Positions 3,797-6,194 of a stretch of DNA of 64,000 nucleotides are shown here, one piece after another. The stretch covers positions 2,046,001-2,110,000 of the forward strand of contig NC_017455.1 of assembly GCF_000165465.1 (NCBI RefSeq), given 5' to 3'. Numbering within the stretch: position 1 is the first letter of the stretch; each line of letters begins with the position of its first letter. This DNA comes from Halanaerobium praevalens DSM 2228 (GTDB lineage: Bacteria > Bacillota > Halanaerobiia > Halanaerobiales > Halanaerobiaceae). A program made the translations under genes and the position numbers. The notes beneath the pieces were generated by a model. It had not been told where the DNA came from. It searched no databases and worked only from the letters and a program-made list of their open reading frames with translations.

Positions 3797-3825
3797 AAAA
3801 AAAGCCAGCCGGAAAACCGGCCGGC
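3797..3825 (-). terminator. Terminator after flagellin
   Basis: On the minus strand GCCGGCCGG-TTTT-CCGGCTGGC forms a 9-bp GC-rich stem with one G-U pair, followed by seven T. It separates the flagellin transcript from flaG-fliD and would let flagellin be made in excess. Confidence 0.93.
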
Positions 3826-3865: not shown

Positions 3866-5095
3866 TTAACCGAGTAACTGAAGTACTCCCTGTGGTAACT
3901 GATTAGCTTGAGCCATCATAGCTGTACCAGCCTGACTTAAGATCTGTGACTTAGTAAAGCTCATCATTTCTTTAGCCATATCTACATCAGAGATTCTTGA
4001 TTCAGCAGCTGTTAAGTTTTCTTCAGCTGTGTTTAAGTTATTAATTGTATGATCTAATCTGTTTTGTTTAGAACCCAATTTAGATCTTTCTGCAGAAACT
4101 TTTTGAATAGCTTTATCTAAAGCAGTAATAGAAGCATTTGCTTGTGATTGAGTTTCAACTTTTACTCCAGCCACTCCCAAATTACTAGAACTCATGTTTT
4201 CAATATCTAATGATAAACTTTGAGATGAGTTTGCTCCAATTTGGAAAGTAGCTGTTCCATCAGTTCTCACATCGGCTGCTTTTGTTGTTTCTTGGAAATT
4301 TGAAAGAGCATCAGTTGCAGCAGATTTAACTTCTCCAGAAGCATTTTTGACAGTCATAGTTACTCCATTAACGGCATCTGATACACCAGTATTAGCAGCT
4401 GTAAATGTTAAAGTACCTGAAGCTACTGAAGTAGTTATATCCGCTGATGTTAAGGCAGTAACAGCTGTTCCAGAAGCAATAGTAATACTTTCTGTAACAG
4501 TATCATCACCTTTTACATAAGATAATTCAACAGTATCTCCAGCAGCAATACCTAAGTTATTATCATCAGAATCTTGTAAGCTAACAACAGTAGAACCAGA
4601 GGCAATATTAGAACCTCCGGATTTCAAGCTATCGTTTTCATTAACATTTGCTACAGCAGTATTTACTGCAGTTCCTAAATCACCATTTAATAATTTCTTA
4701 GTATTAAATTCAGTAGTATTTGAAATTCTATCTAATTCATTAACCAATTCATCTACTTCTTTCTGAATTTCTTCTCTATCACCAGCGGTGTTTGTATCAT
4801 TAGCAGCCTGTACAGAAAGTTCTCTCATACGCTGTAGAATTGAGTGCGACTCTTTAAGAGCACCCTCAGCAGTCTGAATCATTGAAATGCCATCCTGAGC
4901 ATTTCTTTGCGCCATTGACAAACCTCTAGTTTGAGACATCATTTTTTCACTAATAGCAAGACCCGCAGCATCATCAGCCGCCTTATTAATTCTTTTACCT
5001 GAAGAAAGTCTCTCCAACGATTTACTTAAACTACTCTGTGTGTTTTTTAGCTGGTTGTATGAATTCAACGCAGCAATGTTTGTGTTAATTCTCAT
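3866..5095 (-). CDS. hag: Flagellin
   Basis: This 409-residue protein is the flagellar filament subunit. The N-terminal D0/D1 region (MRINTNIAALNSYNQL, LSSGKRINKAADDAAGLAIS, MRELSVQAANDTN) and the C-terminal D1/D0 region (SRISDVDMAKEMMSFTKSQI, ending QGVLQLLG) are canonical. The central part (about 150-290) is Ser/Thr/Ala-rich and variable, so it is the surface-exposed domain and the likely site of glycosylation by the Maf enzyme downstream. The start has a strong AAGGAGG site. The gene has its own terminator and a highly structured leader, both consistent with dedicated high-level, post-transcriptionally controlled expression. FliW and CsrA, which often lie between flgL and hag in Firmicutes, are not here. 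Confidence 0.97.
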   Translation of the reverse strand: MRINTNIAALNSYNQLKNTQSSLSKSLERLSSGKRINKAADDAAGLAISEKMMSQTRGLSMAQRNAQDGISMIQTAEGALKESHSILQRMRELSVQAANDTNTAGDREEIQKEVDELVNELDRISNTTEFNTKKLLNGDLGTAVNTAVANVNENDSLKSGGSNIASGSTVVSLQDSDDNNLGIAAGDTVELSYVKGDDTVTESITIASGTAVTALTSADITTSVASGTLTFTAANTGVSDAVNGVTMTVKNASGEVKSAATDALSNFQETTKAADVRTDGTATFQIGANSSQSLSLDIENMSSSNLGVAGVKVETQSQANASITALDKAIQKVSAERSKLGSKQNRLDHTINNLNTAEENLTAAESRISDVDMAKEMMSFTKSQILSQAGTAMMAQANQLPQGVLQLLG

Positions 5096-5126
5096 TTTTT
5101 ATTCCTCCTTGAAATTTTGTGTTGTT

Positions 5127-5144
5127 ACTGGCATCCTTGCCAGT
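5127..5144 (-). promoter_or_regulatory. CsrA-site-like hairpin upstream of the flagellin ribosome site
   Basis: On the minus strand ACTGGCA-AGGA-TGCCAGT forms a perfect 7-bp stem that presents GGA in the loop, within CAAGGATG, a close match to the known CsrA consensus core ACARGGAUG. A second GGA lies in the AAGGAGG ribosome site about 30 bases downstream, a layout like the two CsrA sites of the Bacillus subtilis hag leader. Binding is inference. Confidence 0.5.
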
Positions 5145-5263
5145 TGAATCTATTTATAGTGGTTATATGAGCACCTCCGCAGCAACACTTCGGCCGATAG
5201 TGTTGCCAGCAACGGTGTTTTAGTAACCATTACAACTATGGTAGTTTATTGAAAGCCATAGTT
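5127..5263 (-). promoter_or_regulatory. Structured 5' leader of flagellin mRNA
   Basis: The 186 bases between flgL and flagellin hold three strong hairpins in minus-strand order. The first is AACTATGG/CCATAGTT (5256-5263 with 5234-5241). The second is GCAACACT/AGTGTTGC (5199-5206 with 5182-5189), extended by CACC/GGTG and GGTTA/TAACC outer pairs. The third is ACTGGCA/TGCCAGT next to the ribosome site. The stretch is much richer in GC than its surroundings. I see no clear sigma-28 promoter inside it and no match to a c-di-GMP riboswitch core. The pairing is seen directly; regulatory function is inferred. Confidence 0.6.
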
Positions 5264-5281
5264 ATAAAAGCCACTAAAATT

Positions 5282-6175
5282 TTATCTAATAAAATCTACT
5301 AATGACTGCTGCATAATTCTTGATCCAGAAGCTAAAGAAGCTCTATAAACCGTTTCTTCCATTTTTAAATTAGTAATTACTTCTGCTAGATCAGCATCTT
5401 CATTTTTAGACTTTAAGCTTTTAATATGAATTTCGTTTGCTTCTAATCTATCAATAACATTTCCAGTCCGCTGAAGTTTTCCACCAACTTCTGCTCTTAA
5501 CTCAGCATATTTATTAATTGAATCATCCATTTCAGATAAGTTATTACCTATATCCTCACCTGAAATACTCTCATCTTCTAGTTGATTATATATTTTATTA
5601 ATGCTCTCTATTTCATCTTTAAAAACCTCATGCCCATTAAGATTAATATCCATCTCTACATTTTCATTTAATCTTCTGGCTACCTTACTTGTATCTCCAT
5701 TATACTTCACATAATTATCAATGCCATTATCAACAACTTCAAAAGGTTTTGCATCTGTTTTTTGGCCTGAGAAAATATAACTATCACCAAGTTTAGCATT
5801 AGAAATATCTATTAGCTCATCTCTTAATTCTTTCATTTCTTTTGCCACCATTTTTCGATCACCAGAAGTCAAAGAATCATTAGCAGTTTTAATTGTTAAT
5901 TCTCTTGCTCTCTGAATAACCTTTGTCCCACTTTTAAGAGCACTCTCAGTTGTGTTTAACCAATTCTCTGCTTGGTTAAGATTCCGCTGAAACTGAGAAT
6001 TCCTATTTAACTGTGATTTGTAATTCATGCTTTCTGAAACTTTAATTGGAGCATCAGAAGGTGTCTGGAATAACTTACCTGAACTCAATTGTTCATTTAA
6101 GTCATTTAAATCTCCCATATTATTTTTAAGATGATCTAACATATTTTGAACCATCATTGAATTTGTAACTCTCAT
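5282..6175 (-). CDS. flgL: Flagellar hook-filament junction protein FlgL (HAP3)
   Basis: This 297-residue flagellin-like junction protein connects the hook to the filament. The N-terminal motif MRVTNSMMVQNMLDHL with LSSGKLFQTPSDAPI and the C-terminal DADLAEVITNLKMEETVYRASLASGSR are typical of FlgL. The length matches the family. The ATG at 6175 is favoured because AGGAG lies nine bases upstream; a TTG three codons earlier lies against the ribosome site. It follows flgK by 19 bases in one transcription unit (flgM-flgN-flgK-flgL). Confidence 0.95.
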   Translation of the reverse strand: MRVTNSMMVQNMLDHLKNNMGDLNDLNEQLSSGKLFQTPSDAPIKVSESMNYKSQLNRNSQFQRNLNQAENWLNTTESALKSGTKVIQRARELTIKTANDSLTSGDRKMVAKEMKELRDELIDISNAKLGDSYIFSGQKTDAKPFEVVDNGIDNYVKYNGDTSKVARRLNENVEMDINLNGHEVFKDEIESINKIYNQLEDESISGEDIGNNLSEMDDSINKYAELRAEVGGKLQRTGNVIDRLEANEIHIKSLKSKNEDADLAEVITNLKMEETVYRASLASGSRIMQQSLVDFIR

Positions 6176-6194
6176 AGCTGTCAACTCCTGTTAT

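Follow-up and report, generated by a model that had tools for sequence, protein, structure and literature searches.

A conserved CsrA-type hairpin and an upstream self-complementary loop in the flagellin mRNA leader of Halanaerobium praevalens

The flagellin leader of Halanaerobium praevalens DSM 2228 carries a GGA-presenting hairpin that is very probably the more upstream of the two sites of a CsrA switch in the flagellin mRNA, together with an upstream structured element, termed element B, that could let two leaders pair loop to loop. For the CsrA part, the sequence, fold, conservation, covariation and regulator genes come from this analysis, and binding and repression are taken over from published work on Bacillus subtilis, Campylobacter jejuni and Clostridioides difficile. 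The locus was analyzed in a stretch of 64,000 nucleotides beginning at chromosome position 2046001 (hereafter the window; coordinates refer to it unless stated otherwise). All features of the leader lie on the minus strand. The leader spans 186 nt (5281-5096) between an flgL-like gene (5282-6184, named from flagellin similarity and position) and the flagellin gene (3866-5095, 409 amino acids). Its 5' side contains a long imperfect hairpin recognized in the sequence (5218-5279, 24-nt arms, 79% complementary), and relatives also seem to have a hairpin immediately before the GGUUACU motif described below. The hexamer CGGCCG of element B occurs again at 3818-3823, within a GC-rich hairpin just past the flagellin stop that is probably the flagellin terminator; hairpins resembling it were seen at two relatives' loci (L007 and L008).

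The CsrA-type hairpin occupies positions 5144-5127 and reads ACUGGCA-AGGA-UGCCAGU, with seven perfect pairs and its GGA at 5136-5134. RNA folding of a 52-nt piece gave exactly this hairpin (-11.2 kcal/mol, z -3.77), and its folding energy was equalled by one of 200 shuffles. The first-pass annotation had proposed a perfect 7-bp hairpin presenting CAAGGATG in its loop; the seven pairs stand, but the folded loop is AGGA, and CAAGGATG is AGGA plus two closing pairs. A second GGA (5108-5106) overlaps the ribosome site CAAGGAGGAA (5102-5111), which shows a weak local stem in the fold; an overlap of this kind is what a hag-type leader requires. The published hag and fliC leaders likewise combine an upstream GGA with one at the ribosome site (PMC7652899, PMC8523840). 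The distance from the first G of the hairpin GGA (5136) to the first G of the ribosome-site GGA (5108) is 28 nt, close to the 30 bases estimated at first and inside the bridging distance of 10-63 nt given for CsrA in PMC7652899. On motif alone, the hairpin is not beyond chance in 64 kb: CANGGANG hairpins with at least four further pairs occur once in the window, with 0.47 expected (0.2 for at least five pairs). Its position and its conservation with compensatory changes do exceed chance.

Both regulators are encoded in the genome. FliW (PF02623, 140.2 bits, over the cut-off) was found at 605927-606286 and CsrA (PF02599, 79 bits, over the cut-off) at 606316-606474 of the chromosome, 1.44 Mb from the flagellin leader, and each protein resembles a chain of the solved entry 5dmb. 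On reading the open reading frames, the one next to the pair resembles FliS, and a CheA-like frame and other chemotaxis-like frames follow. The earlier claim that fliW-csrA are missing from the cluster is therefore true of the slot between flgL and flagellin, but both genes are present elsewhere in the genome. The suggested genome search thus recovered csrA as well as fliW, and the proposal that the regulator acts from elsewhere gains ground, as the two genes lie together at a distance and so can act; the alternative offered with it, use of the hairpin by a different protein, need not be invoked.

Among 61 genomes (H. praevalens and 60 relatives), csrA was over the cut-off in 42 and fliW in 42. 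Setting aside the genus Halanaerobium and G013 leaves 48 genomes, of which 28 have csrA upstream of a flagellin at a distance of no more than 0.7 kb; 18 of the 48 are without csrA over the cut-off or without a listed flagellin, and G055 has the two genes 3.3 kb apart. This position, found in most csrA-bearing relatives outside the genus, agrees with the earlier statement that fliW-csrA lie between flgL and hag in many Firmicutes. By the same measure, csrA was just upstream of flagellin in none of the 10 genomes of the genus plus G013 that have both genes (G003 has csrA and no flagellin match). The fliW-csrA pair sits elsewhere than flagellin in Halanaerobium.

In order to follow the hairpin among relatives, a set of 52 distinct flagellin leaders was compiled from the H. 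praevalens genome and its relatives, after removal of four duplicates, of starts resembling flgL (MRVTN) and of any leader shorter than 200 bases; no flagellin start was found at L047, L057, L144 and L261. One masked leader (L008+238) was counted in the 52 as being without the hairpin and was dropped from later counts. CANGGANG is present at -75 to -25 in 43 of the 52 leaders, and at least three pairs extend beyond the closing C-G in 41 of these 43, compared with a mean of 12.5 and a maximum of 22 when the arms were shuffled among sequences. An alignment, A2, was made from the 40 distinct sequence windows of the 43 leaders; because these were picked by CANGGANG, the inner pair of the CsrA stem is itself selected. 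Covariation in A2 amounted to 83 double-changed cells versus 28 by shuffling, with a score of 0.68 versus 0.18 shuffled and at most 0.244 when slid. The stem and the GGA loop, whose conservation in related leaders had been named as a check, are thus retained with compensatory changes. Beyond the relatives, a first sample of Bacillota showed CANGGANG with at least two further pairs at -75 to -25 in 36 of 47 leaders (at least three in 32), and among Bacillota leaders collected later, an ANGGA hairpin with at least four pairs was present in 62 of 93.

The exceptions are of several kinds. Two leaders without CANGGANG have a GGA hairpin with a different core (L007) or a weak GGA hairpin (L027). In the leader of the flagellin at 297 on the minus strand of L018 (G056), the CsrA stem is kept (UUUUCAGC/GCUGAAAA), the loop is AAAGAA and the GGA is gone, as if this paralogue had been freed from CsrA; two other flagellin paralogues at this locus retain the GGA. 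Inspection of the 52 gave no convincing GGA hairpin in five unmasked leaders (L033, L036, L037, L041 and L046), and the genomes of the last four have csrA, indicating that not every flagellin is under the CsrA switch. L036 (G004) and L037 (G001) belong to second flagellins starting (M/V)IINTNIAALKAYNNLTHNY. L033 is from G007, a complete relative of the same genus (L033, L066) whose sole flagellin-like gene is diverged and of uncertain start; a profile search found neither csrA nor fliW there, and no CsrA-type hairpin is present, which speaks for the CsrA reading. In G059, no fliW was found, csrA scored 24.4 bits (below the cut-off), no hairpin was seen by eye and the flagellin start is uncertain. 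G028 and G035, which count against that reading, retain the hairpin and csrA was not found in them; their contigs end near the leader.

The leader also contains a second conserved structure, so that the initial description of the slot as containing only the leader holds for genes and is incomplete for RNA structure. Three leader fragments that include the region 5' of the CsrA switch have folds far more stable than those of shuffled sequences (z -5.46 to -6.38). Element B, at 5153-5238, matches model R1, derived here, with 84 bits. It has an outer stem, P1 (5' arm GGTTA at 5224-5228, 3' arm TAACC at 5161-5165), and an apical hairpin, P3, supported by fold and alignment (5181-5207, arms 5207-5199 and 5189-5181), which closes a 9-nt loop, AU-CGGCCG-A (5190-5198), with the self-complementary hexamer at 5196-5191. 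In relatives, GGUUACURAAAC or a similar motif is followed by an apical loop with CGGCCG, and the distance from motif start to loop is 33-35 nt in 17 of 18 chosen elements and 31 nt in L051. A MAFFT alignment of 30 elements, from which five had been left out beforehand, gave no consensus fold, which led to a narrower alignment, A1, of the 18 among the 30 with a recognizable GGTTAC-like motif. Since the 5' arm of P1 was selected by the motif and the loop by the palindrome search, P3 provides the fair test in A1. Double changes were found in six of seven apical-stem pairs and one of seven outer-stem pairs, and both stems together scored 0.33 versus 0.135 shuffled and at most 0.164 when slid. Taken by itself, A1 contains a single double change in the palindrome, a result reached by 23 of 500 shuffles, and L019 breaks the palindrome.

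Among 59 genomes of the class, 21 contain matches to model R1, 24 in total, every one on the flagellin strand and shortly upstream of a flagellin start according to coordinates and locus reading, with a single match in the H. praevalens genome. With stricter filters, eight of 398 genomes of the phylum were matched, all of the class. A domain-wide pattern search returned 20 loci, 11 in Halanaerobiales and nine scattered elsewhere, which we take as chance because the hand estimate for chance is of that order (about 26). Other functions considered for element B were rejected. A riboswitch was set aside on the Rfam covariance-model search of the window, the leader and 10 relatives' loci, which gave nothing plausible; in L024, positions 2264-2404, downstream of the flagellin start, resemble the L20 leader family (30.2 bits, E 0.025, below the gathering score). 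A third CsrA site was rejected on the ground that the GGA of element B, in GCGGAGGTG, is GCAGAGGTG in L005. On the minus strand, GTTGCTGGCA of element B (5204-5213) is complementary, apart from one G-U pair, to TGCCAGTAAC in the 3' arm of the CsrA hairpin (5124-5133), which would allow an alternative fold; a cis switch built on these ten bases was discarded, since on visual inspection the pairing is shorter in L012 and L016 and L006 lacks it.

Loops of the same type were found in flagellin leaders across Bacillota. A GC-rich palindromic hexamer in a hairpin loop of 8-10 nt occurs in 31 of 51 leaders of the relatives' set (3.5 expected) and in 19 of 47 of the first Bacillota sample (6.6 expected), the latter being the sample that prompted the generalization. 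A further 93 leaders were fetched after the idea had been formed, from other genomes partly of the same genera, and before they were read the thresholds were changed from a stem of 4 at -300 to -55 to a stem of 5 at -160 to -45. The palindromic loop was present in 27 of the 93 (2.7 expected by shuffling) and in three of 92 equal stretches further upstream; the other 66 leaders are without it by these criteria. Among the later leaders, the CsrA hairpin accompanies 24 of the 27 palindromic loops and is present in 38 of the 66 leaders without one (p 0.0036). At 39 loci longer than 2.5 kb, there were 12 palindromic-loop matches in 4485 leader bases versus six in 257961 other bases. Within the window by itself, this loop type does not exceed chance, with two matches and 0.9 expected.

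The placement of the hexamer is asymmetric. In 9-nt loops on stems of at least six pairs, the palindrome stands at offset 2 in 14 of 44 hairpins of the relatives, nine of 29 of the first sample and 12 of 39 of the later leaders, with 0 or 1 at each other offset; off-leader hairpins with 9-nt loops had it at offset 2 in 0 of 56 and at other offsets in four. With stems of at least five pairs, 61 of 191 leaders (190 distinct, the G060 leader being shared by the relatives' set and the first sample) have the palindromic-loop hairpin, in registers 2+6+1 (34), 2+8+0 (13), 1+6+1 (10), 3+6+1 (3) and 2+6+2 (1). The loop of the HIV-1 dimerization initiation site has the layout 2+6+1. The mirror registers admitted to the search occurred in none of these 191 leaders, and the offset test counts two hairpins at offset 1. 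In register 2+6+1, the base 3' of the hexamer is a purine in 30 of 34 loops, and the 5' neighbour can be any base (U in the window). The palindromes are CGGCCG (36), GGGGCCCC (5), CCGGCCGG (4), GUGGCCAC (3), UGGCCA (3), GGGCCC (3), GCCGGC (2), CCCGGG (2), CGUACG, CGUCGACG and CGCGCG (1 each), so the letters vary across Bacillota but the loop stays palindromic, the palindrome usually being flanked by two bases on the 5' side and by at most one on the 3' side, as in retroviral kissing loops. Because the sequences are related, shuffles and tests make the results look more certain than they are; we place most trust in the asymmetry of the registers and in the range of different palindromes. A loop that changes its letters yet stays self-complementary is what a homodimerizing loop needs, and from this we infer loop-loop pairing of flagellin mRNAs. 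We regard it as evenly balanced whether the flagellin mRNAs of many Bacillota dimerize in this way, through a kissing loop of palindromic sequence on the immediate 5' side of the CsrA switch.

Three other readings were weighed. It is hardly credible that the GGA hairpin is a chance stem or serves a protein other than CsrA: such a hairpin is not rare by chance in 64 kb and the regulators are not encoded beside the flagellin gene, but csrA and fliW are in the genome, and the hairpin and its position are conserved with compensatory changes, in other Bacillota too. The palindrome could instead act in DNA, as an operator, a sigma-28 promoter or a terminator. The sigma-28 -10 consensus contains GCCG, as does the hexamer, and sigma-28-type promoters are close by. 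Of the 42 matches outside the relatives' set, 29 have a sigma-28-like -10 (CGATA) located 15-60 nt upstream of the loop, with 3.0 expected; none of the 27 matches within the set has one there, and six of its leaders have a stricter promoter pattern ending TCGATA further up, at -197 to -303. A -10 at 15-60 nt places the hairpin downstream of the promoter, against a role in DNA, and in genomes outside the class it would put the hairpin close to the mRNA 5' end. CGGCCG as a sigma-28 promoter was rejected on spacing and promoter position, and neither a terminator nor a sigma-70-like promoter was found in the window's leader. A terminator was likewise rejected, as no T-run follows the stems (mean T fraction 0.22). 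In addition, the axes of stem and palindrome are half a base apart in register 2+6+1, mirror registers are nearly absent, and pairs outside the selection include 55 G-U versus 21 A-C, as expected of RNA (69 matches by a looser rule, some of them chance). With these points against it, a DNA feature is improbable.

A protein or ligand site, for example for FliW, with the palindrome as a by-product, is a rather unlikely reading of element B and its Bacillota counterparts, though one with more in its favour. Members of the class mostly share the same loop letters (CGGCCG) and the flanks GGUUACURAAAC, as expected of a recognition site; FliW has also been reported to bind the hag leader for reasons unknown (PMC6529632). 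Against this reading, the loop letters change across Bacillota while remaining self-complementary, and no Rfam family matched.

Under the preferred reading, a CsrA dimer would grip the GGA in the hairpin loop and reach 28 nt downstream to the ribosome-site GGA, by analogy with the known systems, and bridging both would block flagellin translation. CsrA and FliW would be supplied by the distant fliW-csrA pair, and FliW, freed on flagellin export, would remove CsrA. Two leaders would pair loop to loop via element B, so that the message could be a dimer when CsrA meets it. Judged from its sequence, the CsrA site belongs to the known hag-type switch, and the likeness to two-site repression of hag first suggested for it is well supported by the regulator genes and the conserved, covarying hairpin, with CsrA binding predicted. 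As far as the accessible texts go, the H. praevalens system is like B. subtilis hag and C. difficile fliC in its two GGA sites and in the mutual adjacency of fliW and csrA; it differs in that this pair is distant from flagellin and in element B, which is unmentioned for hag and fliC leaders in the accessible parts of PMC7652899 and PMC8523840. The C. jejuni flaA leader, in the part of PMC4894983 available, is similar in that CsrA binds GGA in apical hexaloops with a CANGGANG core, but there two adjacent hairpins lie 21 nt apart, whereas H. praevalens combines a hairpin with the ribosome site at 28 nt. A further difference is the polar localization shown for the flaA message.

A hairpin with a self-complementary loop upstream of the CsrA site is apparently undescribed. 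No description of a palindromic loop in flagellin mRNA was found in the literature searched, mostly non-subscription, and a text search for "flagell" gave nothing in PMC2864571 and PMC8040213. A close likeness is to the HIV-1 dimerization initiation site, where the apical loop likewise contains a GC-rich, self-complementary hexamer followed by a purine (PMC7357161). That RNA is unrelated and has conserved flanking purines, whereas a U stands just 5' of the hexamer in the window; dimerization is proven for HIV-1 and proposed for the flagellin leader. The Drosophila oskar mRNA has a GC-rich kissing loop too, described in the same source, but in a eukaryotic 3' UTR and with a role in localization shown, while the flagellin loop is in a bacterial leader.

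These results resolve an apparent paradox, in that the regulators are not missing but are encoded elsewhere, and the leader has kept its CsrA site. If the loop part is true, a highly abundant message would form homodimers in a wide range of bacteria. The loop part would also bear on the reason for FliW binding to the hag leader (PMC6529632) and on the mechanism of flagellin mRNA localization (PMC4894983). Candidate roles for a dimer are stability, localization, sensing of message abundance and CsrA action across two messages. Because dimerization rises with the square of message concentration, it could report the amount of flagellin message in the cell. Finally, a dimer could let one CsrA dimer act across two messages, and it could gather messages for localized translation.
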